From the NCBI GenBank assembly GCA_017506865.1, contig JAFCMP010000064.1:1-64000 (forward strand): 64,000 bases of DNA. Reading direction: 5' to 3'. Shown here piece after piece: positions 1 to 60,517 of the stretch. The stretch comes from Tribonema minus. Taxonomy: Eukaryota; Sar; Xanthophyceae; Tribonematales; Tribonemataceae. A program made the translations under genes and the position numbers. The notes below the pieces were generated by a model that saw only the letters and a program-made list of their open reading frames with translations, was not told where the DNA came from and searched no databases. Positions within the stretch are counted from its first letter, which is position 1; the number at the start of each line of letters is the position of its first letter.

Positions 1-2304
1 CCCCGCCCCGCGCTGCCGACCGCTACACGATGTTGAAAGTATCGCCTCTACGCCGGCCGCTGGAAGTTGTGAGCAGCAACGTCGTCAGTAGAGAGTGAGC
101 CAGGGTGAATGCCCCGCTCCAGTGCTTCGCCAGCAGGTAGCGAGAGAGAGCCCGCAGGCAACGTCTCCGGCTGCTGCCGCATGTCGCTAGGGTCGCGACA
201 CTTCTTGGTGAGGCGCATCGATATGCGCGTAGGCCGTCCGTTGATGTCCACCAGAAGACACCGGCCTGCACACGCTCCCGCCGCTCTCCGCCGGGCCCGC
301 TAATATTATGCTATAGGGCCCATGCCATCTATCCAAGAGCTTCTTGCTAAAGAGTGTGCGCTTCGCCTTGTTGAACTCCCCGCCACTGGTGCCGGCTCCG
401 TGTCTGCAGATGCCGTATGCGTGCGCGGCACATGGTAGTACCACACTCGCTCACAGCGCTGAACGACTGACGTAGTACAAATGCCTCCGCGATCTCGGTG
501 TTCTCGCGGAGCACCTTAGCCCGTCGCAGCGCATGACGTTGGTTGGCAATGGTGTTGGCTGAGCGCTGCCGCTCAAGGATGTCGAACACTAGCTGTGACA
601 CTGAAGGATGTGTGCCAGGCTTGACCAAGGGCTGTTGAAGCTTGCCCAGTATGAGGTGTAGTGCGACGGCGGCCCTCGCGACCAGTAGCCAGAAGGAAGG
701 GGGTTGCGCCGGTGGCGCGGTTGTAGGCAGTGTTGTGGGCAAAACTGATATGAGGTAGCCAGTCCGCCCAATTGTTCTTGGCACTATCAACTAACATGGC
801 GAGCATCTGGGCTAGCTCCTGCATGAAACGCTCACACTTGCCGTTGCACTCAGGGTGGTATGCGGTAGTGGAAAGCTTCTTGACGCCCATCTGCTTGTAG
901 ACAGCTTGAGAAAGCTCTGCCATGAAGAGGCTGCCGCGGTCGCTGAGGAGCTTAGAAGGGGGGACCGTGACGAGTGCTGTGCTGGTTGACTAAAAACTTC
1001 AGCTGTGCCAGCAGCACTGTAGTCCCCAGGCTTGATGGGATAGCACCACACCCAGCCCGAAAACAGGCACATCACCACCAGTATGTACATGAAGCCGCCA
1101 GCACTGAGGGGTAGGGGGCCGAAGTGGTCAAGCGCTAGGCTATGAAAGGCGTAGGGGGGCCTCTCGCGCCATATAGTGGGCCAGCGAGACAGCTTGCCGG
1201 TGTGCTTGAACGCTTGGCAGGGCAGCAATGATTAACCCAGTAGTTGACGTCTAGGGTCCAAGAGGGCCACCAGCAGTGCGCGCGGGTGCGCTCCAATGTG
1301 CGTTTAATGCCCTGGTGGCCTGCCCAAGCTGAGCCGTGCATCGCCTCAAGAACTTGATCCCTAATGGACCGGGGAATGGCAAGCTGTGGAAGCGGGGATT
1401 CGGGGGTGTTGTGCACCAAGAGCTGAGCGTTGCCGCAGACGACAAGGCTGCACTGCAAGGCCCATTTCTGTACCTGGGCTGCAAGCGCCGCGTCTGCTGG
1501 CAGTCCTGCTCCAAGCAGCATGTTGCAAATTGGCCCCAGCTGAGCATCTGCGCGCTGCTCTCGCTGCCAGTCACCAGGCGTCATGACGCCCAGTTGAGGA
1601 TGCTCAGCGAAGCACTCCCATGCACCCGCCTCAGCGTCTGCCGCCTCAGCAAGCGCGGAAATCTGCTCCTCTCCCCCTCCTTGAAGCGCTGCTACCACCT
1701 CCGTGCAGATGTTGATGTACTCTGCTGTTGCAAATGCCTCCAGCCGCTCCCACTCGTGGGCCTGCAGGCAGTACGCCTCGAGCAGCCGCTCGCGCTCGCT
1801 CTCCTCTGCATCTTGTGGTGTAGCAGGGACAGGATTGCGGCTTGGCCCGTCGGCATTGCCGTGTGACGCGCCCTTCTTGTAGCGAATGGTGATGTTGAAG
1901 GCGCTGAGGAACTCGCTCCAGCGCGCGCCGCGCGCGGTGCGCTCGCGAAGGCTGTCGATGTACTGAAGAGCGCGGTGGTCGGTGTAGAGGACAAACGGCG
2001 TCCCCCACAGGATGTGTTTGAACTTCTTGATGCCGAAGACGATGGCGCCGGCTTCAAGGTCGGTAGTAGACCAGTTGCGCTCATTGGGTAGAGTCGCGCG
2101 AGATGTGAAGGCGATCGGTTGCTCCGCGCCGTCGTTGTTGGCCTGCGAGAGCACTGCGCCAAAGCCCTCCTTGCATGCGTCTGTGGCAAGGACAAAGGGG
2201 CGCTCGCCTGTGCTGGCGCGCGCGTTAGTCGGGGTACTGCATGCAAGTGTGAAGCGCCAGGGCTTCGTTGACCTCGCGGATGGCTTGCTGTTGAGCACTG
2301 CCAA
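1..2304 (-). pseudogene. RNase H and integrase part of the gypsy-like element (decayed, cut by window edge)
   Basis: RNase H is visible with FVLATDACKEGFGAVLSQ and FVLYTDHRALQYIDSL. The integrase zinc-binding region (HQGIKRTLERTRAHCWWP), the catalytic core (LALDHFGPLPLS and HPECNGKCERFMQ, containing the last acidic residue) and a C-terminal GPY-like module (LLDRWHGPYSIILAGP) follow in order. This part is broken in several places, unlike the upstream Pol. The region after the GPY-like module to base 1 is the element's 3' end, with the LTR still further left. Confidence 0.85.
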
Positions 2305-5300
2305 CTATGAAGTCCACCCCCTTGGCCATCAGATGGGTGAGCGGTGCTACCAGCTTGGCCATGTTCTGAATAAATCGCCGGTAGTAGTTTGCGAGGCCAA
2401 GCCACGCACGCAGCTGAGAGATGTTGCAGGGGATGGGCATCTCAAGTAGGGCTTGAACTTTGGATGGATCTGGCCTGATGCCATCAACGCCCACAATGTG
2501 CCCCAGGAACTTGATGTGCTTACACCCTATGTGCAGCTTGCTGGGGGCTAGCTTCATCCCATGATGCTCTAGGCGCTGAAAAAGGGCTTTGAGGTCGTCG
2601 AGGTGCTGAGCCGTGGATGTAGAGTGCACAATGACGTCGTCAATGTAGGGCTGGACGCGCTCTAGGCCGGAAAGCACCATCTGCATGAGGCGTGTAAAGT
2701 GCCCTGGCGCCCCCGCTGCCCCCTGTGGGCACCGTAGCCACTCATACAAGCCAAACGACGTGACCATGGCAGTGAGGGGGATGCTGTCTGCATCTATGGC
2801 ACTAGTGAAGTACCCACTGGTGATGTCCATGGTGGTGAAGACCTTTGAGCCCCCCAAACTATTGAGAAGATCCTCTATGTTGGGAATGGGGATCTGGGGG
2901 ATCTTGGTCTGGGCGTTCAGCTTCTTGTAGTTGACGGTGATTCGGGCAGTGCCATCAGGCTTGAGCACTGCCACCACTGGGGATGCCCACTCAGAGTTGG
3001 AAGGGCGGATGATGCCAGCAGCCAGCAGCTTGTCGATTTCGACCTTGACCAGAGCCGTCATTGCAGGAGAGTACCTATATGGACGGTCATGGTGCGGTGT
3101 GCTGCCCTCTTTGAGATCAAAGCGGAAGGGCAATGTGTTACAATGCCCTATGTCCCACTTGTCTTTTGAGAGCATTTTGCTGCTATACTGAGCGAGCAGT
3201 AGGCACAAACACGCCACCTGATCAACGTCCCATCCCTGCAGGTCAACGCGCACTGCCAGCATGTAGTCTGGCAAGTGCTTGCGTGCCTCAGCCAAAGCAG
3301 CATTAACCTTAGGGTCTTCGTGAACGTATGACCCCAAACTTAAGCCGCCGCTGTCAGGAATGTGTACTTTTGCGCTCCCACTAGGCTCAAAGTCAACGGC
3401 CTCACCGAGGTGTTGCTGCAGCGCCTCTCGCACGGCTGCTGCGCCCTTCGCAATAGTCGCGTCAGCGCTGCTGCCGGCGTCACCCTCCGGCTCCGCCTCG
3501 CAGCGCATAATGTCAGTGCGCAGGTCCAGCACAAAGATGTCCTCCTCCCTCCCAGCGCGCGCTGGCGCCGCCGCGGCGGCGCCTGCCGCGTGCGCGGGCT
3601 GCGCCGCTGTATCTCTTGTCACTGATGCTGCCGCTGCAGCATTGCTCCCACTAGCCGCTGCCGCATGCGCGGCGTCCTCAGACGCCGCTGCCGCTGCAGA
3701 GCGCTGCTGCGCCGCTGCCGCCTGTGCGGAGCTCGCCCACTCCACTGCGGTGGCCATGTGCACTGCGACTGGTTCAGCGCCAGCATGCGCCGCTGCTGCC
3801 GCAGTGCTCTGTTGAGTTGCCACTCCATGCGCGGCGCTGGTCGGCGCCGCGGCAGAATCAGCGTATGCCGCGACAGGCGCGGCGCCCGTAGGCGCCGCTG
3901 CCACCGCAGCGCTCCGCTGCGCGTCCGCCGCTTGGGTGGCGCTCGCCGGCGCCACCGAAGAGACTGCGCGCGCTGCAGCTGGCGCGGCGCCCACAGGCGC
4001 TGCTGCTGCTGCAGCACTCCCTGGTGTCACTGGTGCGCGCGAGGCGTGCGCCGACGCAGCCGCTACACCAGCAGCACGCGCCGCGACTGGCGCGGCGCCC
4101 TCGGGCGCCGCTGCCGTCGCAGCGCTCCGTCGCGCAACTGTTGCCTGCGCGACCTCCTTATGAGCCGCCCCTGAGGCAGCTTGGGCCGCAGCGCGCACGG
4201 TGCCAGCCGGCACCGATGCCGCCGCAGCGCCCCGGCATGCAGCCGCTGCCTGCGCAGCAGCAGCAGTGTCGCCGTGTAGGGGGCCAGAAGACGTCTCTTT
4301 TGTCGCAGAGCTCCGCGGCGCGGCCGCTGACTGCGCGGCACCCTGCGGCGCCGCGGCAGCAGCCCGCGGCGCACTGCGCGCAATGCCTGTATATGCTGCC
4401 GCCGCAGCAGCGCTTGCCGGCTCTGCTGCAGCAGCGCTCGCCGGCGCCGCCGTCGCAGCGCTCGCCGGCGCCGCCGCAGCTGCAGCAGCTTGTGCTTGAG
4501 GGGCGCGCGCTCCGCGCGCCACACGTCTGCGCGCCTCCTGTGCAAGAGCCACTCCATACTTGCCGAAAGCGTGGTGGGTGCCAGAATTGATGAGGGTTTG
4601 TACTGGATCTGGCAGCGACGATGCCGCCGCCTGGTCCACGACATCATGCAGCAATCCGCTCTGCAGCAGGATCCCCCCCAGTAGGTCCGCCATTTGCGGG
4701 CACACCGCGTTCGCCAGCATCTGTGAGTAGGCAGTGACGTCAGGCGGCTCTGGAGCATCCCACTTGTACGAGGTGGGGAAGCTGTGAATGGCGCGCAGCG
4801 CATGCCAGGGTAGGTACTCCGCGCGCGCGTGCTCAGCCGGGTCCTGCGTAGCATCCTGTGGTCGCACGTCCATGTTAGGCTGCAGGTTTCGGCGGTATGT
4901 GCAGCCGCGAATGGTCGGCGCGGGGCCGTCCATAGAGTGCACCTGTTTGGCCTTAGTGTTGCGGCCAACTGTTGCAAAGAAGTCGCGCCGCTGACCGTTG
5001 GAGTCAAGCACGTCGCTGGTGACGTTGCGCACGGTGTCGTACTCAGCTTGCTGCTTGGCATATGTCAGCAACTGCACTGCCTGGTGCATAGACGCCTGCA
5101 TGCGCGCGCTGTCGTGCTCGCCAGTGCCAGGTCGCCCCAGCAGCCAAAACACACGCGTGCGCGTCTGAGCAATGCGGCTGTCTGCACCAGTGATCACTAG
5201 CTCCTGCTGCACCGTGAAGCCGCCGTGTGCTGCGCAGCGCAGAAACTCCGCCAGCTCCGGTGCCGCCCTAAGGCCCGGAACATTTTCAATCTGCAGTAGT

Positions 5301-8077
5301 CGGCAGGTCTCTGCGCCCATTGCTACCTCCAGCATGTAGTAGAGGTGCTCCATGCCCAAAGCCGTCTCCCCCTCCCCTGCTGTTGAGAACTTCTGGCAGG
5401 GGGGGCCCCCTAATAAGACCTCGGCGCGCAGCCGCCTCATATCTGCAATGAGCTCTGCGCGCGTAGATGGGTCCGCCATATCCCGGCGGCGGACGTCCGT
5501 ATGAGGGTGATTCTCCTTGTATATCCGAAGAGCGCGCTCCTCAGAGTCAACGGCGAGCTTGACGTTCAAGTAGGGCTGGAGCCCCTCCGCCAGGCCGCCA
5601 GCGCCGCAGTAAACGTCTACCGCCGTGGCGCGCGCGTTCGGGTCTCGTTCCAGCACGCTGTCAGTTACCTCACGTAGCGGCCGCGCCTTGCCCAGCACGG
5701 TGCCACGTGGCAGCGAGACGGGCTCCCCCCGCTGCTCGAGCTTGACCGGCTTGGCATGCAGCCCAACCGTCAGCTCGCGTGTGTACATGTGATTCAGGAA
5801 TTCCTCCGCGATGGTCACATGTGCTGTGTCCAGTTCTCCCGGGCAGGAGACGACAGGTGTGATCCCATCAGACTCCATCACTTGAACCCAAACTGTCTGC
5901 ACACCATGTTCAAGGCCATCTAGCTCTGTTGCGACGCGCACTACTGCCACCCAATCGCGTTCCTCCCCGTAGGTGTACACTGGGACTTTGGGACTGAAGC
6001 TGGGGGTGGGCTCTGCTGATGGCTCGCCATACACGTATGTGGGCCCACTGCCACTATGACTTGCATGCCACTTATGTCTGCTGATGTGGTCACGCCCAAT
6101 GATGATGTCGTGTGGCAGATGTGGTACAATGAGCGCCAGCTGAGTGAAAGCTACCCCGTCTGGGCCATCAGCCTCAAAGTGAAGCGCTACAGCGTGGGTG
6201 ACGCGCTGTGGCTTCTTGGATGTGTCAACACCGGCTACTGCCCTAGGTTTGCTGAGTTGGTGGACATCCCGTTGCTCTATGGCTCCTGATGCAACTAATT
6301 TGCGGAATGCTTGCTCCCTGATGGCAGTAACTGAGGCCCCAGTGTCCCAGAGAATGTCCCTAGAAAACTTGCAACGTAGTGCGCGCGCAGAGCGTAAACG
6401 GGCCTTGAACCTAGAGTGCACGTCAGTATAGAGTTTGCCCCTTACGTTGGGCATGCTTGCCTGCTGTGGTACAGGTAGTACTGCGGCCTCCATCGCTGCC
6501 ACCTCAGCGTAGTATGCCAAGACCGCCCCGTCATCAGCTCCGTCCTCCGGCGCCCACATGGCCAGTATCTCGAAGCAGCGCTCAACAGTGCGCGCCTCCT
6601 CTGCCATGGCTATCTCCACCGCTGTCAGGCCCGCCTCGCCGTCCAGCACCTCGTCGATGGCGCCAAGGGTCTCTGCCGCCGGCGCCCAGCTGCGCATCCG
6701 CCGCTGCGGCTCAGGTTGAGCCGTGCCATCCACCTTGAAAGCATGAAGCCGCTGCAGAGCTATCAGCCTGCGCTGCTGCTCCGCTGCAAAGGCGGCGTCG
6801 TCGGCGGCGTGCGCCGCCGCAGCAGCGTCGCCGCCGCTGAGTGGTGCTGAAGGCGGTCTTGAGGAATGTGTGGGAGTCGCAGTTGATGTCAGAGTTGAAG
6901 TTGGTGTAGAAGATGGAGTTGTCGTGTGTCGTGTCGCAGCAGCTGCTGCAGTCGCCAAATGTGGCGCCGTTGCCGGCGCAGAAGTTGCAGTTGTAGTCGT
7001 GCTGCAGCTACTCACTGCTGGTGCTGGTGGTATCCTCACCCCCCCTTGCGATGACGCGTGCGCGCCAACTCCATGACCCGCCGCAGCATGCACGGGTCTC
7101 CATGCTGGAGTACCAAGCTCCTGAATAGGGCTGAGGGGTGCTACCGGCTGTCGAGCGCGCTGCTCCTGCTGCAGGCGCTCCGCGCGCGCGCGCCGTAGCC
7201 GCGCGCCGCTGGACTTACGTCGCCCCAAAATAGGCCATCGCTGTACAGTCGTAGTTGTTGTCGCCGGCGACTGTGCAGCACCATCAGGCGCCGCCAACGC
7301 CGCCGGTCTCCATCGCGCCGTTGCTGCTTGAGCAGCGTTCGTGGGCGCCTCCTCAGCAGCAGCGCTCAACGGAAGCTGCGCCGTCGTAACGCTCTGCTGC
7401 GCAGCTGCTGCGTGGGCGGCGCTCGCCGCTGCTGCAGAAGCTGCATGCACTGCAGACAGCGCAGCGCCCAAAGGTGCCGCTGCTGCCGCAGCGTTCCGTG
7501 GTGCTGCTGGTGCGAGCGCGGCGCGTCGCGGCGCCGCCACACCAGAAGCACGCGCCGCGACTGGCGCGGCGCCCGAGGGCGCTGCTGCCATCGCAACGCC
7601 CCGCTGCGCGTCATCCTCTTGGGCGGCGCCCGACGGCGCCACTGAAGAAGCTGCGCGCGCCGCTTGCGCGACGTCCATAGACACCGCTGCTGCCGCAGCC
7701 CTCCGTGGTGCTGTTGGTGCGTGCGCGGCGCGCGCAGGCACCGCCAAACCAGCAGCACGCGCCGCGACCGGCGCGGTGCCCGAGGGCGCCGCTGCCATCG
7801 CAGCGCTTCGTTGCGCGTCAGCCGTTTGGGCGGCGCTCACCGGCACCCTCGCAGAAGCCGCGCGTGCTGCAGCTTGCGCGACGTCAGTAGGCGCCGCTGC
7901 TGCCACAGCACTCCGTAGTGCCTCTGGTGCGTGCGCGGCGCGCCGCGGCGCCGCCACACCAGAAGTACGCGCTGCGACTGGCGCGGCGCCCGAGGGCGCC
8001 GCTGCCATCGCAGCGCTCCGCTGCGCGTCAGCTGCTTGGGCGGCGCTCGCCGTCGCCCCCGCAGACGTCGCGCGCAC
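2225..8077 (-). CDS. pol: Pol polyprotein, N-terminal part: protease - cytosine-5 methyltransferase - reverse transcriptase
   Basis: One open frame of about 1,950 codons. The first ~250 residues are Ala-rich tandem repeats. A retropepsin-like site (ILWDTGASVTAI) lies near residue 575. A complete-looking C5-methyltransferase spans roughly residues 812-1139, followed by a second Ala-rich repeat block. The reverse transcriptase follows at about residues 1620-1870, with the TMDITSGYF motif and YIDD catalytic site, then FLGHIVG and LGLANYYRRFI, typical of Ty3/gypsy. RT copies the element RNA, the protease matures the polyproteins, and the methyltransferase is predicted to act on cytosines in DNA. 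The unbroken frame through all three enzymes argues that the methyltransferase belongs to the element and is not a later chance insertion. Its expression mode relative to Gag is not visible. Confidence 0.9.
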   Translation of the reverse strand: MRATSAGATASAAQAADAQRSAAMAAAPSGAAPVAARTSGVAAPRRAAHAPEALRSAVAAAAPTDVAQAAARAASARVPVSAAQTADAQRSAAMAAAPSGTAPVAARAAGLAVPARAAHAPTAPRRAAAAAVSMDVAQAARAASSVAPSGAAQEDDAQRGVAMAAAPSGAAPVAARASGVAAPRRAALAPAAPRNAAAAAAPLGAALSAVHAASAAAASAAHAAAAQQSVTTAQLPLSAAAEEAPTNAAQAATARWRPAALAAPDGAAQSPATTTTTVQRWPILGRRKSSGARLRRARAERLQQEQRARQPVAPLSPIQELGTPAWRPVHAAAGHGVGAHASSQGGVRIPPAPAVSSCSTTTTATSAPATAPHLATAAAAATRHTTTPSSTPTSTLTSTATPTHSSRPPSAPLSGGDAAAAAHAADDAAFAAEQQRRLIALQRLHAFKVDGTAQPEPQRRMRSWAPAAETLGAIDEVLDGEAGLTAVEIAMAEEARTVERCFEILAMWAPEDGADDGAVLAYYAEVAAMEAAVLPVPQQASMPNVRGKLYTDVHSRFKARLRSARALRCKFSRDILWDTGASVTAIREQAFRKLVASGAIEQRDVHQLSKPRAVAGVDTSKKPQRVTHAVALHFEADGPDGVAFTQLALIVPHLPHDIIIGRDHISRHKWHASHSGSGPTYVYGEPSAEPTPSFSPKVPVYTYGEERDWVAVVRVATELDGLEHGVQTVWVQVMESDGITPVVSCPGELDTAHVTIAEEFLNHMYTRELTVGLHAKPVKLEQRGEPVSLPRGTVLGKARPLREVTDSVLERDPNARATAVDVYCGAGGLAEGLQPYLNVKLAVDSEERALRIYKENHPHTDVRRRDMADPSTRAELIADMRRLRAEVLLGGPPCQKFSTAGEGETALGMEHLYYMLEVAMGAETCRLLQIENVPGLRAAPELAEFLRCAAHGGFTVQQELVITGADSRIAQTRTRVFWLLGRPGTGEHDSARMQASMHQAVQLLTYAKQQAEYDTVRNVTSDVLDSNGQRRDFFATVGRNTKAKQVHSMDGPAPTIRGCTYRRNLQPNMDVRPQDATQDPAEHARAEYLPWHALRAIHSFPTSYKWDAPEPPDVTAYSQMLANAVCPQMADLLGGILLQSGLLHDVVDQAAASSLPDPVQTLINSGTHHAFGKYGVALAQEARRRVARGARAPQAQAAAAAAAPASAATAAPASAAAAEPASAAAAAAYTGIARSAPRAAAAAPQGAAQSAAAPRSSATKETSSGPLHGDTAAAAQAAAACRGAAAASVPAGTVRAAAQAASGAAHKEVAQATVARRSAATAAAPEGAAPVAARAAGVAAASAHASRAPVTPGSAAAAAAPVGAAPAAARAVSSVAPASATQAADAQRSAAVAAAPTGAAPVAAYADSAAAPTSAAHGVATQQSTAAAAAHAGAEPVAVHMATAVEWASSAQAAAAQQRSAAAAASEDAAHAAAASGSNAAAAASVTRDTAAQPAHAAGAAAAAPARAGREEDIFVLDLRTDIMRCEAEPEGDAGSSADATIAKGAAAVREALQQHLGEAVDFEPSGSAKVHIPDSGGLSLGSYVHEDPKVNAALAEARKHLPDYMLAVRVDLQGWDVDQVACLCLLLAQYSSKMLSKDKWDIGHCNTLPFRFDLKEGSTPHHDRPYRYSPAMTALVKVEIDKLLAAGIIRPSNSEWASPVVAVLKPDGTARITVNYKKLNAQTKIPQIPIPNIEDLLNSLGGSKVFTTMDITSGYFTSAIDADSIPLTAMVTSFGLYEWLRCPQGAAGAPGHFTRLMQMVLSGLERVQPYIDDVIVHSTSTAQHLDDLKALFQRLEHHGMKLAPSKLHIGCKHIKFLGHIVGVDGIRPDPSKVQALLEMPIPCNISQLRAWLGLANYYRRFIQNMAKLVAPLTHLMAKGVDFIVGSAQQQAIREVNEALALHTCMQYPD
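3540..4500 (-). repeat. Ala-rich coding tandem repeat between methyltransferase and RT
   Basis: A diverged version of the same unit as the N-terminal block is visible at about 3,877 and 4,087, again 210 bp apart. The methyltransferase therefore lies between two low-complexity blocks of common origin, which look like flexible linkers. Confidence 0.7.
4660..5640 (-). other. Cytosine-5 DNA methyltransferase domain inside Pol
   Basis: The canonical C5-methyltransferase motifs appear in order: motif I DVYCGAGGLAEG (AdoMet binding, about 5,610), motif IV GGPPCQKFSTAG with the catalytic Cys (about 5,400), motif VI ENVPG with the catalytic Glu (about 5,280), motif VIII QTRTRVF (about 5,160) and motif X ANAVCPQMA (about 4,700). 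The order I-IV-VI-VIII-X is the standard, non-permuted one. The length of about 325 residues matches compact Dcm-like or catalytic-domain-only enzymes. The interval between VIII and X, where target recognition resides, is short. No BAH, CXXC, PWWP or other eukaryotic maintenance-enzyme domains are visible. All key residues are present. Retroelement-borne C5-methyltransferases are known from Klebsormidium and Symbiodinium; I cannot tell whether this one shares their origin. Confidence 0.93.
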
Positions 8078-8110
8078 TGCAGCTTGCGCGACGCCCGCAG
8101 GCGCCGCTGC
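7330..8110 (-). repeat. Ala-rich coding tandem repeat, N-terminal block of Pol
   Basis: A unit of about 207-210 bp (69-70 codons) recurs. The same GGCGCGG(C/T)GCCCGAGGGCGC core is at about 7,561, 7,768 and 7,978. It encodes low-complexity Ala/Pro/Arg sequence such as SGAAPVAARASGVAAP. Multiples of three bases keep the frame open. Confidence 0.8.
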
Positions 8111-8221
8111 TGCCGCAGCGTCTCTGACTGTCGTCGGGGGGAGGGCGTCACTCCCCCCCCCAGTGACACTAGAGGCTCCAAGTGCTCCCCCCCAGCCAGG
8201 AGTGGGCTGGGGGTCGCACCC

Positions 8222-11200
8222 CTAGGTGCCCCTGTTGCCACTGTTGCCACGGCCGCCGCGGCCGTAGCCGCCCCCGTAGCGGTTGTAGCTCCTGCCACCG
8301 CCAGCGCCACTTCCGCTTCCACCATCTGCGGAATCTCTGCCGCGCGGGCCCTGAAGCGAGGAGGCATCGCCGCTGTTGAAAGCACGTATGCGCGACCGGA
8401 GTGCCTGCCACGTCGTCTGGTTCGTAGGCGCAAATTTCTGCACCAGTGGGCGTTGTACTGCTGCCGCTGCCCAACCTGCGTGGTTGAATGCCTCCGAGCA
8501 TGCGCTGAACAGGTGATCACCGCCGCAGTTGTAGCACCCCAGCGCGTTACCCCGCGCCCGCTCCGAGCTGGTGAATTTCTCCTCCACCACTGCCAACAGA
8601 GCCATGGAGTTCAGTGTCACTGATTCACGCTGCTGCCTGCGCCTCCTGTCGCCCAGCGCGTAATCATTGGTGCCACCGCCACCATTGCCGCCACTTAGAC
8701 CGCTGGCGCCTCCGCCTGAGCCCGTGCTGAGTGTCTCGGGGTATATAGAGTAGCCGGCGGGTGCGCCGCTGGCGAGATGCTGCACGGAGCGGTGCGCCTT
8801 GAGCGCCTCAAGCGCCTGGTGCATGCTGTAGCGTGTGTGGCGGTTGATGATGTCCCGAATGTTGTCCTGCGCGGCAATTGTTGGGTATTGCCTGTTTACC
8901 AAGCCCGTAAGAGCTTGGACGCGTAGGTTGTCGTTTGTCGGGTCGATCATTGCGGACAGGTTGCACTTGGACTGCATGTAGTTGAGCGCATCACGGAATG
9001 GCGTGTCTTTGCGCACCGCCACGCGTAACAGGTCCGCCGCAATGCGAGAAGGCTGACCTTGCTGGAAGTGCTCCCCCAGTTGTTCCATGAGCCACTTGTA
9101 GAGCTGCAGGTCTCTCGTGCCAGCCGCCACTCCCCGTGCGCCCTCCGCGATCCATTGTTCTGCCTGCTCGCGCACCGTTGCTGCTGCCGGATGCGAGCCC
9201 CGTAAGGCGACACACAGGCCCATGGTAAAGGGGGCCAGCCATTCGCAACCAAAGTCGTCCTCCCTGTTGAGCACCTGCGGCAGCTTGGCCTTCTGACGCG
9301 CGAGTGAGCAGGCGTGGCGCAGGTGCACCAGCAGTTGACTGCCAATCTGCCACACGACATACTCGTCGCCGCGGTTTACAGGCGTGAGGCCATGGAACAG
9401 CTTGTCCAAGTCTGCCGGTACACGGCGCAGAGCCCAGCCATCACGATCAAAGTTGTCGTCACGGCTGCCTCCACTGCCGCCACCACCAGCGCCACCTGCA
9501 CCACCGCCGCCTCCACCGCCGCCGCCGCTGCCGCCGCCAGAGGCTGCGCCAACCGGTACAGTGCCCCGGGGCGATCTAGAGGGGCCGCTGCCGCCTCCGC
9601 CACCGCCGTCGCCGTCGCCGCCGGCGCCGCCTCCGGCGCCGCCGCTGCCTGCAGCGCCGCCGCTGCTGCCGGCGCCGCGGGCTGCGGCGCCAAAGTCGCT
9701 GCTGCCGCCGTCCGCGAGGGTGGCAGCAGGCAAGGCAGTTGGCGCAGCAGTCGTCGACGGCCTCTGCTGGGTAGCCGCTGCTTGCATAGTACCTGGGGCG
9801 GCCGCCATTGCGGCCGTTGGCGCCGCCGATAGGCCAGCGTTGACCCTCCGTAGCTGCTGAGCCTCTGCCGTAGCTGCATCGCGCTGCATAGTAAGTGTCA
9901 TCAGAGCCTGATGGAAGTGGCTCTGATCTGCTGCATGCTGCAGCTGCAGCTGAGCGTCGGGCTTCATAGTGGGCTGCGCTGTGGGTGCCAAAGTCGCATC
10001 CGACGAGTCAGCAGCGTAGCTGCTTGTTACACGTTCCAGTTGTTGACGCAGTGGCCGGGCGTCAGCGCCGCCAGCAGGAATGGTCGGCGCCGCCGATGCG
10101 CTCGGCGACACGTGCTTTCCAGGCCCAGCCAATGGTGCAGCGTATGGCGCAATGGGCGGTCGTGCCACGCTGCTGCTGCGGATCGTACTAAGCGGCACTG
10201 CCGGGCCGCTGGTGCTGAAGTCTGCTACTGACACGCTGTCCTCGGGAGCCACACTGGGTGCTGCGCTGCCAAAGTTGCTACCCACAGAGTGGAAGGATGT
10301 CTCATACGCCGTTGTGGTACGACGCTGCGCATCAAGCATCGCAACTTTAGTGCCCACCTCAAATAGCTGGCGCCGCATGTCCCCCACGCCCGCTGCAGCG
10401 TTGTTGTGCCGCCGCAGCAGATCCTCGTGCCGCGCGATCACCTCCTCCATGCGCTTTTGCCCCTGCGCAACCTCCGCTGCCACTCCTGACAGGCGCTCAC
10501 CCATGTGGATCAGCCGCAACTCCGCAGTCGCGACCCTCTCACCGACCTCCGCGATGCTCTCCGCGATGGCCGCCATGTCTCCTTGTATGACAGGAATCAC
10601 ATCCTGTACCAGCGCGTCCATGTCGCGCTGTGATGCTGCACCGCCTGCGATGGTGGGGCCACTCCCCATCTGCGCCAGTGCACTAGCGTGCTCCGCCAGC
10701 TGCATCTGGTGCCTGCGCAGCGATGTGTCGATACCGGGCAAGTTGTGCGTAATTACCATGCACAGATCCTGCCCCATGAGAGAGGTGGTGTTGGCCACCC
10801 CTGCGAGCCCCCCTTTGAGGCTGGTTACCTCGGACTGCAGGTACTGCAACTCCATGTTGAGCTGCAAGTCCAAGTCCTCCTCGGCAGTCATATGCCCCAC
10901 CATCGCAGCTTCCTTTCGCTGCTCCTCCTGCTCCATTTCACGCTCCCTAGGAGAGGGCACCGCGTCCATTGCGGGCCCAGATCCCATCGGGCGGATGACC
11001 AGGTGCTTCGGGTTGTCGGCGAGGGCGCCAAGAAGTCCTGTGGGTCCAGAAGGCTTGCCGCCAGACTCGTGCCCCCAGTCGGCAGCAGCACTGTCTGCCC
11101 ACTCCACCAAAGCGTGGTCAGCGACAGATACTGGACCTGAAGTGGTGTCGCTGCTCCCGATGGTGGACAAGTGGTGCGGAGCCGCCGCAGCAGCGTCAGT

Positions 11201-11482
11201 TGCAGGCCCTGGCACAGGCTCTGTTCTCACTGCGCTGCCGCTTGCTAGCTCGTTCGCACTCTGGGCTGGTACGACTGCGCCACCAGCAGCGCCTCCAGCC
11301 TTGATCGCAACAGCATCTGCCAGTGATGCTGCGCGTCCCACGGACAAACTCCGTGACCTCTGCACACGCCTCGGCTCCGGGTTGTGGCCATAGGGCAGCT
11401 TGGCCAACACAACTCCAGAGCTCCGCGTTGCGCGAGAGTTTACTCCTGATGCAGCACGCGCCGAGTCCTGCTCGTGCGCCAT
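8222..11482 (-). CDS. gag: Gag polyprotein of the gypsy-like element
   Basis: An uninterrupted frame of about 1,086 codons starts with MAHEQDSARAAS. The N-terminal half is Ala/Ser-rich with heptad-like stretches (around residues 190-380, for example LNMELQYLQSEVTSL) that could form coiled coil. A long Gly-rich linker follows (about residues 590-690), then a capsid-like helical region. Near residues 978-991 lies a zinc knuckle CYNCGGDHLFSAC, spaced C-x2-C-x3-H-x4-C, one residue shorter than the usual CCHC. The C-terminus is Gly/Arg-rich, suiting nucleic-acid binding. Gag proteins of this family package the element RNA into cytoplasmic particles. The Pol frame begins about 145 bases downstream in another frame. 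The overlapping proline-rich plus-strand frames are shadows of the Gly-rich linker. Confidence 0.85.
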   Translation of the reverse strand: MAHEQDSARAASGVNSRATRSSGVVLAKLPYGHNPEPRRVQRSRSLSVGRAASLADAVAIKAGGAAGGAVVPAQSANELASGSAVRTEPVPGPATDAAAAAPHHLSTIGSSDTTSGPVSVADHALVEWADSAAADWGHESGGKPSGPTGLLGALADNPKHLVIRPMGSGPAMDAVPSPREREMEQEEQRKEAAMVGHMTAEEDLDLQLNMELQYLQSEVTSLKGGLAGVANTTSLMGQDLCMVITHNLPGIDTSLRRHQMQLAEHASALAQMGSGPTIAGGAASQRDMDALVQDVIPVIQGDMAAIAESIAEVGERVATAELRLIHMGERLSGVAAEVAQGQKRMEEVIARHEDLLRRHNNAAAGVGDMRRQLFEVGTKVAMLDAQRRTTTAYETSFHSVGSNFGSAAPSVAPEDSVSVADFSTSGPAVPLSTIRSSSVARPPIAPYAAPLAGPGKHVSPSASAAPTIPAGGADARPLRQQLERVTSSYAADSSDATLAPTAQPTMKPDAQLQLQHAADQSHFHQALMTLTMQRDAATAEAQQLRRVNAGLSAAPTAAMAAAPGTMQAAATQQRPSTTAAPTALPAATLADGGSSDFGAAARGAGSSGGAAGSGGAGGGAGGDGDGGGGGGSGPSRSPRGTVPVGAASGGGSGGGGGGGGGAGGAGGGGSGGSRDDNFDRDGWALRRVPADLDKLFHGLTPVNRGDEYVVWQIGSQLLVHLRHACSLARQKAKLPQVLNREDDFGCEWLAPFTMGLCVALRGSHPAAATVREQAEQWIAEGARGVAAGTRDLQLYKWLMEQLGEHFQQGQPSRIAADLLRVAVRKDTPFRDALNYMQSKCNLSAMIDPTNDNLRVQALTGLVNRQYPTIAAQDNIRDIINRHTRYSMHQALEALKAHRSVQHLASGAPAGYSIYPETLSTGSGGGASGLSGGNGGGGTNDYALGDRRRRQQRESVTLNSMALLAVVEEKFTSSERARGNALGCYNCGGDHLFSACSEAFNHAGWAAAAVQRPLVQKFAPTNQTTWQALRSRIRAFNSGDASSLQGPRGRDSADGGSGSGAGGGRSYNRYGGGYGRGGRGNSGNRGT

Positions 11483-11542
11483 CGTACCGCTATCGCCTGG
11501 TGGATTTGGTCAAAGGTCGTCTTTTCGTACTCGGGAACCAAC

Positions 11543-11734
11543 TGATGAAACAACTAGTCTCCGTACTACACTTCAGCAAGTGCAGGGAACAATGCAGAGA
11601 AGACACCCACACACAACACAGCTGACCGAACTGTGCTATGTGTATTCTGGGGCTGCTGCTCTTGTCTGAGCCAAACAAACACAACGAACAACTCGTAACT
11701 GCCAACCGTAACAGTTACAGGTGACACTCCAACA
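11543..11734 (-). repeat. Candidate 5' LTR of the gypsy-like element
   Basis: On the minus strand this stretch begins TGTTGGAGTGTC and ends ...TCA, just before a TGG that could open a primer-binding site (plus-strand 11,526-11,540). The Gag start is at 11,482. LINE-A-like sequence begins right beyond it. Only one LTR is in the window, so the boundaries rest on TG...CA ends and context and could be off by tens of bases. A 192-bp LTR would be short for the family. Confidence 0.35.
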
Positions 11735-11978
11735 TCCAGTGTCACCACAGCTCCACATGGCGTACTCTGGCCGTGTCATGACACACATGGCAGAATCCAG
11801 GGGGGGGGGGCACATGGAGGAGGACGTAGGGGAGGACCCCGAGATGCCATTTGGCGGCGGCGGCGTTTGAGTGGTTGTCGTTGCGACACTTTCAGACTGT
11901 CATACGACATGTAGATTCCTTACAGCTAGATGCCAATCATCTGGGCTTTTTCGCGCCCTGAGCCAGAATTAATAAAAA
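11735..11978 (+). mobile_element. LINE-A 3' end (5'-truncated), plus strand
   Basis: This stretch matches the 3' end of the minus-strand LINE-A copy at 13,740-14,454: the last coding residues (HMAYSGRVMTHMAES...), a poly-G run, the terminal DPEMPFGGGGV-type residues, then a 3' UTR ending in AATTAATAAA followed by AAGTAC. The left side meets the gypsy LTR, so the gypsy element probably inserted into this LINE and the rest of it lies left of the window. Confidence 0.75.
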
Positions 11979-13739: not shown

Positions 13740-14454
13740 TTCATTAATACTCGCTCAGGGCGACAGTCTGAAAGTGTCGTAACGACAACCACTCAAACGC
13801 CGCCGCCGGCAAATGGCATCTCGGGATCCTCCCCTACGTCCTTCTCCATGTGCCCCCCCCCCCTGGATTCTGCCATGTGTGTCATGACACGGCCAGAGTA
13901 CGCCATGTGGAGCGGTGCAGACAGTGCCGAGCGCAAGTGCGCCAGGGCGATGTCCTTGAGAGCTTTAGAGCGCGCACCGCCGGGCACTGACATCCTGCTG
14001 GCATACTCGGTCGCCACAGCCCCGCCCCTGCTCCCCGATGCTGCCAAAAGACCCAAAGTGGCAAGTTTGTAGCAATTCTGGTCATATTGACCAGAATAGT
14101 GGGATAACTTGGCGGCCTCTTGGTCGCGGCAGCAGCGCTCGGGGTCTGCTGCAGTCTTCGCCGCCCGCGACGCCACCTGTGCCTCGAAGCAGGTAACGCC
14201 CACCATGAGCGGTAGGTGACGTGTCGGGTCGTCGTAGCCGGTCACCGGGAAGGCGTCGGCAGGCAGCACGATGTCCATCCTGCGACTCCCCGGCGGCCCG
14301 GCGGATCCCAGAAACGGCGTGTAGTCCTCGTCCACCAGTCCCGTTTTGAGGTATTGCCGCAGGATGCGCTGCGTGGCCCTCTTGACGCTATTGTGGACGA
14401 TGGTGTCGTGCGCCTTGACACGTGGCGCTTGACACAGCCGTGCATGCAGGGTGC
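13740..14454 (-). mobile_element. LINE-A, 5'-truncated copy with 15-bp target-site duplication
   Basis: Flanked by perfect TGCCAATGTGTACTT at 13,725-13,739 and 14,455-14,469. It encodes the C-terminal ~220 residues of a non-LTR retrotransposon ORF (minus frame ending near 13,793): NSVKRATQRILRQYLKTG, GSRRMDIVLPADAF and EAAKLSHYSGQYDQ. These align in order with the restriction-like endonuclease region of LINE-B (QKRCLQRILRQHH, GYRADTVIDP, EDAKVKHHTG). The acidic residue in the LINE-B segment GIVLDTSV corresponds here to LMVGVTC, so the catalytic centre may be changed. The 3' UTR ends at 13,740. Confidence 0.85.
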
Positions 14455-14959: not shown

Positions 14960-15101
14960 TTTATTAATTCTCGCTCAGGGCGCGAAAAAGCCCAGATGAT
15001 TGGCATCTAGCTGTAAGGAATCTACGTGTCGTATGACAGTCTGAAAGTGTCGCAACGACAACTACTCGAACGCCGCCGCCGCCAAATGGCATCTCGGGGT
15101 C
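14960..15101 (-). mobile_element. LINE-A 3'-tail copy with 14-bp target-site duplication, inserted beside a LINE-B tail
   Basis: 142 bp covering the LINE-A C-terminal residues (DPEMPFGGGGV) and 3' UTR. Flanked by CAGTACTGGTACTT at 14,946-14,959 and 15,102-15,115. The left duplication overlaps the LINE-B duplication, so this copy landed after the LINE-B tail. Confidence 0.85.
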
Positions 15102-15543
15102 CAGTACTGGTACTTGCTCAGTGGTATTTGCATGTGCATATCGTGGCATCAATGTTCAGTGCGAAAAGAAATGGCATGGCAGGCATCGCCATCACCATGG
15201 TCACCAAGGTAGCAGCATGCAACACAGCTCGCCGCAGGAAAACACATCGTTGAGCAGCCATGCATGAGGAAACAGGCCAAAAAACAAACTAAACCAATAC
15301 CTGACATGTATTCATAAGCGTGCCAGCAACGCCCGTAGGTGTCGCTTGCGCACGTTCGATTTGCACGCTGCGCGCCGATGAGATGTGGTTTGATGGGCTT
15401 GCTCGAACACACACACGCTGCTGATGGAACGCTGCGATTGTACTATGCGATGGAAAGTGCGTGTGCGGCGCACGCTGCTTTGGCACCAGCAAAAGCCAAT
15501 CGAGGAGACCTTGTGAGAATTTGGGAGCACAGTCTGCCACAAT

Positions 15544-58762: not shown

Positions 58763-59908
58763 TCACCATGTCCCTGCGTCAACAAGACGCTTGCTCATGG
58801 CAGCATGCACATAGGCTGGGTGCCCTACCGGTACCCCGACCGACGTAAAGCCCTGACTGGATTCTGGCATGGTGGCGTCCACAAGCGGTATGTCAAGGGC
58901 GCGCAGGCGTGCTCTGGCCGCTTCATCAAACACTGTGCCGCGCATGGCAATGGCCAGCGACTTGTCTGGTCGAACGCGTAGGCCCCCTGCCGCCAGCCGG
59001 CGGATCACCTCTGCCACCCCAGCGGCCGCTGCATCGTCGAAATAGGCAGCTTGCAGCACGTTGAGGTCATCCAGGAAAGCACAGTGCGGGGCTGGCGGTT
59101 CCGCTGTGCTGTGGCCGTAGGCCGGCATACTGCCGGGCGTCGCATTCACTCCATCAGGGTAGAAGAGTAGGAAGGCCGCTGCCACTGCAAAGTACAGCGG
59201 CCCTAGAGGGTCCCCTTGCTGGCACCCTAGGTGGGAGCAGATAATGCGAGCTTCACCGTTCACCTCCACCCGCATCTCTGGGGCAGTGTCACCACAGTAT
59301 ACGGACTCAAAGTGCGGGAGCAGCTCCGGACAGAAGAGCATAAGCCCCCGCACAATGGCGGCGCGATCCACACTGTTAAATGCGTTCTCACAGTCCAGCT
59401 GGATTGTGGTGCCATACAGCTCGTGCCACACGCGCGCGCGCGCTGCCACATGCTCGACGCCAGACCGGTATCCTACGCCAAACTGCGACATGGAGGCCAG
59501 CAGCCCCGATATCTTGCCCTTGACACTCCGTGCCGCTGTGGACCCGAGGAGTCTGCGCCAGACACTGGAGCAGGCGATCGGACGCCGCTTCTGTCCTATG
59601 CCTGAGAGGGCCGCGGCGCGGAGAAGCCGCAACGGTTGCGATTGCTCCGGCAGCAGTTCGGGCTCAACAAGCAGCGTCGTGAACACCTTGGCCAGGTGAT
59701 GGGCGAATGCCGGTTCCATCACATCTGATTCTGAATCACCAGCTAGACTAAGTCCTGGCGAGGCACTGCCCACGGGGCGGGTGGCTGCTTTCACTGGTGC
59801 ACCAGGCCTGGCGGCCATCAAGAGGTGTTCATAGCGTAGGCCGTCCAGCCCTCCTGCCTTACCCACCCCTGCTGCGGACAAGGTCGACAGTATGTCTGTC
59901 GCCTCCAC
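58763..59908 (-). CDS. LINE-B reverse transcriptase region
   Basis: Non-LTR RT motifs in order: KAGGLDGLRYEHLL (RT0/1-like), IGQKRRPIACSSVWRRLLGS (RT2), IQLDCENAFNSVDRAAIVRG (motif A), CSHLGCQQGDPLGPLYFAVA (motif B) and CAFLDDLNVLQAAY (motif C with DD; Leu replaces the usual Ala/Val before it). RT copies the RNA by target-primed reverse transcription. The frame ends at a single TGA after RLVDAGTW, and the next codons in the same frame continue the protein, so this is one in-frame nonsense codon. The frame upstream of 59,908 is also broken. Confidence 0.88.
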   Translation of the reverse strand: MEATDILSTLSAAGVGKAGGLDGLRYEHLLMAARPGAPVKAATRPVGSASPGLSLAGDSESDVMEPAFAHHLAKVFTTLLVEPELLPEQSQPLRLLRAAALSGIGQKRRPIACSSVWRRLLGSTAARSVKGKISGLLASMSQFGVGYRSGVEHVAARARVWHELYGTTIQLDCENAFNSVDRAAIVRGLMLFCPELLPHFESVYCGDTAPEMRVEVNGEARIICSHLGCQQGDPLGPLYFAVAAAFLLFYPDGVNATPGSMPAYGHSTAEPPAPHCAFLDDLNVLQAAYFDDAAAAGVAEVIRRLAAGGLRVRPDKSLAIAMRGTVFDEAARARLRALDIPLVDATMPESSQGFTSVGVPVGHPAYVHAAMSKRLVDAGTW

Positions 59909-60517
59909 CTCGAGGCGCCGTCTGGCTGCGCTGGCAGCGTCCTCAGGCCTATCGCTGTGATCATGTGCCTGACCCGATTCGAAGACAGGACTGCCGCTGC
60001 CAGCTGGCCCGGCCCGGCGGTCGTTGCTACCCCTGCGCTGTGTAAGCAGTGCCGCCGGGCGTCGCGTACCAGGCCGCGCACTTGCTCCATTGGCGTATCG
60101 ACTACCCCCGGCCGGGTGCCAGTTTCAGGGTGCTTTGCTGCCAGCACCTGTGCCGTGACCTCGTCTGCTGGGGCGCATGCTTCACGCGCCTCTAGTCGTG
60201 CGGCAGCCAAGCCTACCCCCCGTCGCTTGCCTGAGAGGGCAGCGCATGCTGTTTGCTGCCTGGAGTCAGCCTCCGTCCAGTCGGCATCGAAGTTCGTTTG
60301 TGCCGACGCCGTTACGTTACAGACGCCGCCGCCGCGTTGTTTGGTTTGGGGGCCCGCAGCGTCGCTGCTGCTGACAGCGTCTTTCTCAGTAGCTCCGCGA
60401 AGTCGCCAGACAGCAACGCTGCCAGCCGGGCCGCAGGCGGCATACCGGTTCCCTCCGGTTGCCTACCAAAGGCCATTGCTGCTAGCAGGTGCAGCAGCAG
60501 CCTGTAGCGGCGCTGCA

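Follow-up and report, generated by a model that had tools for sequence, protein, structure and literature searches.

A C5-cytosine DNA methyltransferase domain inside the Pol frame of a Ty3/gypsy-type retrotransposon family from Tribonema minus

The Window Copy Carries a Methyltransferase Between Retropepsin and Reverse Transcriptase

A C5-cytosine DNA methyltransferase (MTase) domain lies inside Pol of a gypsy-like element of the alga Tribonema minus, as had been noticed from the DNA letters and is confirmed here, and it is a regular part of the element family. Judging from the features identified, the window (the whole stretch of 64,000 nucleotides from contig JAFCMP010000064.1 that was analysed) contains a single copy of an LTR retrotransposon family of the Ty3/gypsy type, with the Pol order retropepsin (PR), MTase, reverse transcriptase (RT), RNase H and integrase (IN). 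This copy comprises:

11541..11749, minus strand: 5' LTR of about 209 nt, first letters TG (length taken from the likely end before TGG)
11521..11540, minus strand: candidate primer-binding site TGGTTCCCGAGTACGAAAAG, starting with TGG immediately after the LTR
8225..11482, minus strand: Gag frame from ATG, without Pfam match
8498-8536, minus strand: CCHC-like knuckle motif CYNCGGDHLFSAC in Gag
8222..8224, minus strand: in-frame UAG at the Gag/Pol boundary, Gag and Pol being in one frame
8176..8213, minus strand: predicted H-type pseudoknot 8 nt past the UAG, with a 9-bp stem and a 7-nt loop pairing downstream
6422..8221, minus strand: Ala-rich N-terminal part of Pol (33% Ala, 105-nt repeats)
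6089..6355, minus strand: PR, motifs ILWDTGAS ... IIIGRD
4652..5641, minus strand: C5-cytosine DNA MTase domain, motifs I, IV, VI, VIII and X, PF00145
3122..4654, minus strand: Ala-rich linker after the MTase (36% Ala, 105-nt repeats)
2492..2965, minus strand: RT, PF00078, E 2.1e-24
1897..2205, minus strand: RNase H, PF17917, E 5.1e-34, in frame 1138-2304, here another frame than that of RT
1225..1377, minus strand: integrase H2C2 zinc domain, PF17921, E 7.8e-15, broken end

Matches to the 5' region start at window positions 11746-11750 in 35 of 42 cases, and the first 181 nt of the LTR were found again about 12.52 kb downstream in the copies on C340, C309, C163, C388 and C291, whereby 40 of 131 candidates were scored in the LTR-pair search. 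Direct LTRs, as represented by this 181-nt part, are present at both element ends in these five other copies, and the 3' end and 3' LTR of the window copy fall beyond the contig start. A genome search with the complement of positions 4-19 of the candidate primer-binding site gave 36 sites, among which no tRNA gene was identified.

The window copy is broken past RT. The copy L061 on C551 has an uninterrupted frame after the stop, in which MTase, RT (RVT_1, 1753-1910), RNase H (2006-2108), H2C2 (2282-2340) and rve (2370-2456) follow in that order, the rve match being below the cut-off (30.8 bits vs 32.6). RT is thus located ahead of the integrase with RNase H between them, which is the Ty3/gypsy arrangement. 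The PR region of L061 is 99.7% identical to that of the window. The PR of the window copy gave no Pfam match, and the homologous frame of L062 reached 19 bits against gag-asp_proteas (PF13975), below the cut-off of 28.2. Related 105-nt (35-aa) Ala-rich repeats form two arrays, at window positions 7343-8164 before PR and 3636-4487 after the MTase. Since such repeats occur at both places alike, the earlier suggestion that the Ala-rich blocks mark a capture of the MTase is not supported.

The Domain Looks Like an Intact C5-Methyltransferase

Motifs I, IV (with the catalytic Cys), VI (ENV), VIII and X were found in order in the Pol frame, and the predicted fold agrees with a full domain of the PF00145 class. 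The original prediction is supported in part: it holds in this respect, as it does for the order PR-MTase-RT in a gypsy-like element, which is present in many copies. The window MTase looks intact, and catalysis is predicted. A first structure prediction from a shallow alignment had a pLDDT of 43 and was discarded. The top structural match of the predicted fold is M.HaeIII, and the fold is also near the host-type enzymes DNMT1, DIM2 and ZMET2. Dnmt3 chains were absent among the 50 matches listed in either fold comparison, an absence that does not exclude them. Likewise, PDB searches at E≤0.01 listed no Dnmt3 chain among 14 distinct sequences (single-sequence search) or among 35 (profile search). 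On account of these sequence searches, a capture separate from the Dnmt3 elements of Klebsormidium and Symbiodinium, as had been proposed, is likely, though not proven.

The domain resembles stand-alone phage and bacterial C5-MTases (M.HaeIII, Bacillus phage phi3T type, E. coli prophage 3g7u) in its top fold match and in sequence, where 14 phage records align with 80% or more of the domain length at 23.9-27% identity, but in the sampled tree these enzymes are placed apart from the retroelement clade (98/98, see below). A close phage relative was considered and rejected, as all 50 phage records matched were below 60% identity (23.9-27% among the 15 listed). A viral source was likewise rejected: a peptide pattern matched two stretches of viral contigs, neither of which codes for a relative.

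The Methyltransferase Is a Regular Part of the Element Family

A search of the genome gave 122 MTase matches at E≤1e-10, fragments included. Ordered by identity, these comprise 39 matches at 87% or more (with the window copy), 15 near-full ones at 64-65%, and then groups at 50% and 34-40%; several of the weaker matches contain stops. Clade-A RT was found downstream on the same strand for 68 of the 90 MTase rows compared, with a spacing of exactly 1648 nt in 17 of them, and on the opposite strand within 5.5 kb for four of the 90. Conversely, 14 of the 82 clade-A RT rows compared have none of these MTase rows upstream, a number in which truncation and loss are not separated. Other copies therefore carry the domain at the same place and in the same order, and the objection that other family members might lack it there has failed. 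All these numbers are matches and not independent insertions, and some copies may represent one insertion assembled twice, since the flank of the window copy is also present on C309. Two element starts on C340 (2192 and 15684) and two junctions on C112 (1113 and 14595) each lie in the same direction about 13.49 kb apart, as if in head-to-tail pairs.

Between L061 (A1 type) and L062 (A2 type), dN/dS (NG86) was determined. The values were 0.24 for MTase, 0.20 for RNase H-IN, 0.17 for PR (synonymous sites near saturation), 0.115 for RT and 0.37 for the PR-MTase linker. Twenty-six of the 30 best MTase matches are of equal length, and all 26 are stop-free and keep the catalytic Cys; four of them vary just before this Cys and one in QTRTRVF. 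One of the four loci left out has two stops. Among recent copies, pooled pN/pS was 0.57 for the MTase and 0.37 and 0.44 for its flanks, indicating weak constraint on the MTase, as is expected if most copies evolve neutrally once inserted. Many MTase copies are DNA-identical, and recent amplification has thus taken place.

Gag and Pol Are Separated by an In-Frame UAG Followed by a Predicted Pseudoknot

A 19-mer from the junction was found at 70 sites in the genome with at most one mismatch (61 exact), and a reversed-pattern control yielded 0. A clade-A MTase row lies 1.5-6 kb downstream of 48 of these 70 sites. TAG is kept at 69 of them; since the search pattern itself includes TAG, and one of the nine mismatches in the one-mismatch sites falls in TAG, which is about chance level, the site count alone proves little, and by the same mismatch count old copies show no extra care for the stop. 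A stronger point for a conserved UAG is that the 19-mer is identical in the window (A1) and L062 (A2), though their Gags are 27% identical.

The pseudoknot pairing was read at 22 junctions out of the 70, of which 17 are distinct. There, 98.6% of 219 cells are paired and three pairs are changed on both sides; none of six slid versions gave any such pair. The covariation score was not reached in any of 500 shuffles, while the number of two-sided pairs was reached in 7 and that of further pair types in 66. The two-sided changes set the A1 type apart from the rest and thus reflect few events. The 9-bp stem was predicted in 21 of 22 single folds, and a single fold of the junction region was no stronger than shuffles (z -0.79). 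We infer from these data that Pol is probably produced by UAG read-through aided by the pseudoknot. Gag-pol read-through of the MLV (gammaretroviral) type uses an in-frame UAG, an 8-nt spacer and an H-type pseudoknot. The Tribonema junction is alike in these three features but belongs to an algal Ty3/gypsy element, in which read-through is predicted; sequence homology is not claimed. Window positions 8176-8228 (minus strand) accordingly present a conserved UAG and a covarying pseudoknot, like a retroviral stop read-through signal, in an algal Ty3/gypsy element.

Relatives Outside the Genome Have Intact, Damaged or No Methyltransferase

When the RT was used as a query against about 5.8 billion proteins, 95 matches were obtained at E≤1e-20, 15 of which have an RT identity of at least 60% over the whole query. 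An MTase profile search detected the domain in seven of the 95, each time between PR and RT, these seven having also been part of the search profile. PR and MTase share one frame in P0005. In three of the 15 close relatives (P0009, P0018, P0023) PR and RT are 284-320 aa apart and the MTase is absent, and five of the 15 gave no PR match and are hence uninformative on its presence. The catalytic Cys is missing in P0010, P0011, P0015 and P0016, and the ENV motif is altered in these four and in P0021. Since three relatives lack the domain and four lack the catalytic Cys, the MTase is not needed for transposition as such. In the four Cys-less metagenome relatives the MTase-like domain is still open.

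In the RT tree, P0009 (no MTase) is sister to P0010/P0011 (dead MTase) with support 100/95, and P0018 (no MTase) is sister to P0015 (dead MTase) with support 98/78, unstarred. The RTs of P0010 and P0011 are near-identical, whereas their MTases differ 12.5 times as much. For the listed intact pairs, the MTase/RT rate ratio is 2.3-3.3 (window-L062, window-L063, window-P0019, L063-P0019) and 4.8 (window-P0013); for the window against damaged MTases it is 4.4-6.3, and for the listed pairs with a damaged member 4.4-12.5. Distances between the MTases are correlated with those between the RTs (r 0.53, Mantel p 0.0057, 10 taxa). These patterns fit a single capture followed by vertical descent with RT, the enzyme having become inactive in two or more lineages. 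In P0023, which is basal in clade A, the MTase may never have been present.

A Second Group of Elements Has the Methyltransferase Before Retropepsin

At the locus L064 (C4:548500-556500), a single frame encodes Gag, MTase, PR and RT, with the MTase ahead of PR (MTase-PR-RT). Identity to the window is 25% for its MTase and 30% for its RT. B-type RT was found downstream of 75 of the 100 non-A MTase rows compared, at 2050-2450 nt in 70 of these, and nearby on the opposite strand for one of the 100. The order of L064 is shared by lineages C and D, and among the 91 matches of a search with the L064 RT it recurs in the metagenome proteins P0104, P0105, P0106 and P0109. Lineage E presents a third type with broken frames, in which PR was not located. 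In L064, L073 and L006/L015, where the MTase precedes PR, the PR active site is DCG, DTG or DSG depending on the member.

In the RT tree, the sequences of A, B/C and E are placed apart from one another. In contrast, the MTases of A to E form one clade (14 of 24 rows) against phage, bacterial and stand-alone MTases with support 98/98, in a tree to which five phage rows had been added and from which P0001, P0002, P0015, L017 and Dnmt2 had been left out. A first tree united A to E against six others with support 94/88, unstarred, and here a grouping of A with B-D alone, E excluded, was not rejected (AU p 0.088). In these trees, which contained no Dnmt1, 3 or 5 sequence, the window domain sits with other retroelement MTases and not with a single host gene, the latter having been named beforehand as an outcome speaking against the original prediction. 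Three stand-alone C5-MTases with open frames of 367-390 aa are present on C223 and C181 (L001, L002, L003), the first two of which branch outside the clade of retroelement MTases. It is possible, and we propose it tentatively, that one non-Dnmt3 C5-MTase family moved as a module between unrelated algal Ty3/gypsy lineages with two insertion places (PR-MTase-RT in clade A, MTase-PR-RT in clades B-D), that its dose in clade A is set by pseudoknot-driven stop read-through, and that it is carried on in some lineages in a catalytically dead state.

What the Methyltransferase Might Do for the Element

The explanation we favour with moderate confidence is that the family has a Pol with a full MTase, which is made by read-through, is packaged with RT and methylates element DNA, giving an advantage against host recognition and decaying where there is none. 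Ribosomes would pass the UAG with the help of the pseudoknot, so that Pol would arise only by read-through; the MTase would then be made in smaller amounts than Gag and be packaged with RT in the particle. There it might methylate cytosines of the new double-stranded element DNA, before or at integration, and the methylated copy might thereby gain a benefit linked to the way in which the host recognises unmethylated DNA. The domain would decay within the polyprotein or disappear where this benefit is missing. CpG depletion, considered as a sign of self-methylation, gives no support, as it was not seen in the element compared to the rest of the window (0.93 vs 0.75-0.76). In a codon shuffle, CpG of the element is slightly below expectation (603 observed vs 642±9).

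It is also conceivable, if unlikely, that the MTase acts in trans on host DNA or chromatin, such as target sites or silencing loci, and thereby steers integration or blunts silencing. The more than 100 MTase matches of the genome, which include fragments and a few stand-alone genes, could alter the methylome of the host, an effect that PMC5890265 proposes for Symbiodinium, and the nearness of the fold to host-type enzymes would agree with such a role. However, the position of the MTase inside Pol beside RT and IN, behind a probable read-through stop, favours packaging. Somewhat less probable again is that the domain is no longer relevant as an enzyme and is kept in Pol as a spacer with a structural or nucleic-acid-binding role. 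The four Cys-less relatives, the altered ENV motifs and the strong divergence between the MTases of P0010 and P0011 would be in line with this, but the examined representatives of lineages A to E in this genome retain both PC and ENV, dN/dS of the MTase between A1 and A2 is 0.24, and the MTase/RT ratio in the listed intact pairs (2.3-4.8) contrasts with that in pairs with a damaged member. That the domain is a neutral passenger, inserted by chance into one copy and then amplified along with it, we regard as very improbable: the DNA-identical copies do speak for recent amplification, but the same place and order recur in subfamilies whose RTs are only about 65% alike and in the metagenome relatives, which refutes a chance insertion into one copy, and purifying selection is seen between the subfamilies. 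Methylation of cDNA has been suggested for retroelement MTases in PMC5890265.

Comparison With Known Retroelement Methyltransferases

KnitGypsy-Dnmt3 of Klebsormidium nitens, described in PMC5890265, is a Gypsy LTR element that encodes a C5-MTase within its Pol frame; it is intronless and occurs in several copies, with catalytic residues kept and purifying selection. The Tribonema family is alike in the MTase in Pol of a Gypsy element, the lack of introns, the several copies, the kept residues and the selection. It differs in that the KnitGypsy MTase groups with Dnmt3, whereas no Dnmt3 chain is among the PDB matches listed for the window MTase, and in that the KnitGypsy repeats are described there as DIRS-like, whereas the Tribonema LTRs are simple direct repeats. 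The same source reports SymbioDIRS-Dnmt3 and SymbioLINE-Dnmt from Symbiodinium, where two SymbioDIRS architectures coexist and both of the SymbioDIRS enzymes assayed in yeast methylate CG; for the Klebsormidium enzyme in yeast it gives an inconclusive negative. These Symbiodinium MTases are likewise retroelement-borne and present in large numbers, but reside in DIRS and LINE elements and are of Dnmt3 or an orphan lineage, unlike the Ty3/gypsy element of Tribonema. Published retroelement DNMT3s are placed in Copia and DIRS elements in PMC12344493.

Within the open-licence papers considered, the apparent enzyme family, its two placements in one genome, the contrast of live, dead and absent domains and the read-through signal are new. 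Retroelements that carry a DNA MTase of their own are few, and a red-plastid alga and metagenome relatives are now added to them, apparently with another enzyme family. In the host genome, nuclear rbcL fragments resemble the red-type (Form ID) enzyme, and 92 matches to light-harvesting proteins were obtained, two of which, used as queries, hit mainly chains of the fucoxanthin chlorophyll a/c and ACP/CAC types; a prymnesiophyte 18S probe found no match there. Close relatives with a live, a dead or no enzyme offer a natural contrast that makes the question of function testable. In our judgement, expression by means of a read-through pseudoknot would be unusual for a Ty3/gypsy element, and it predicts packaging of the enzyme.

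Elsewhere in the window, a second RT-like frame is present at 58766-60124 (minus strand; PF00078, E 4.9e-8), and a 68-nt direct repeat at 13762-13829 and 15035-15102 has 93% identical units that are 1273 nt apart.
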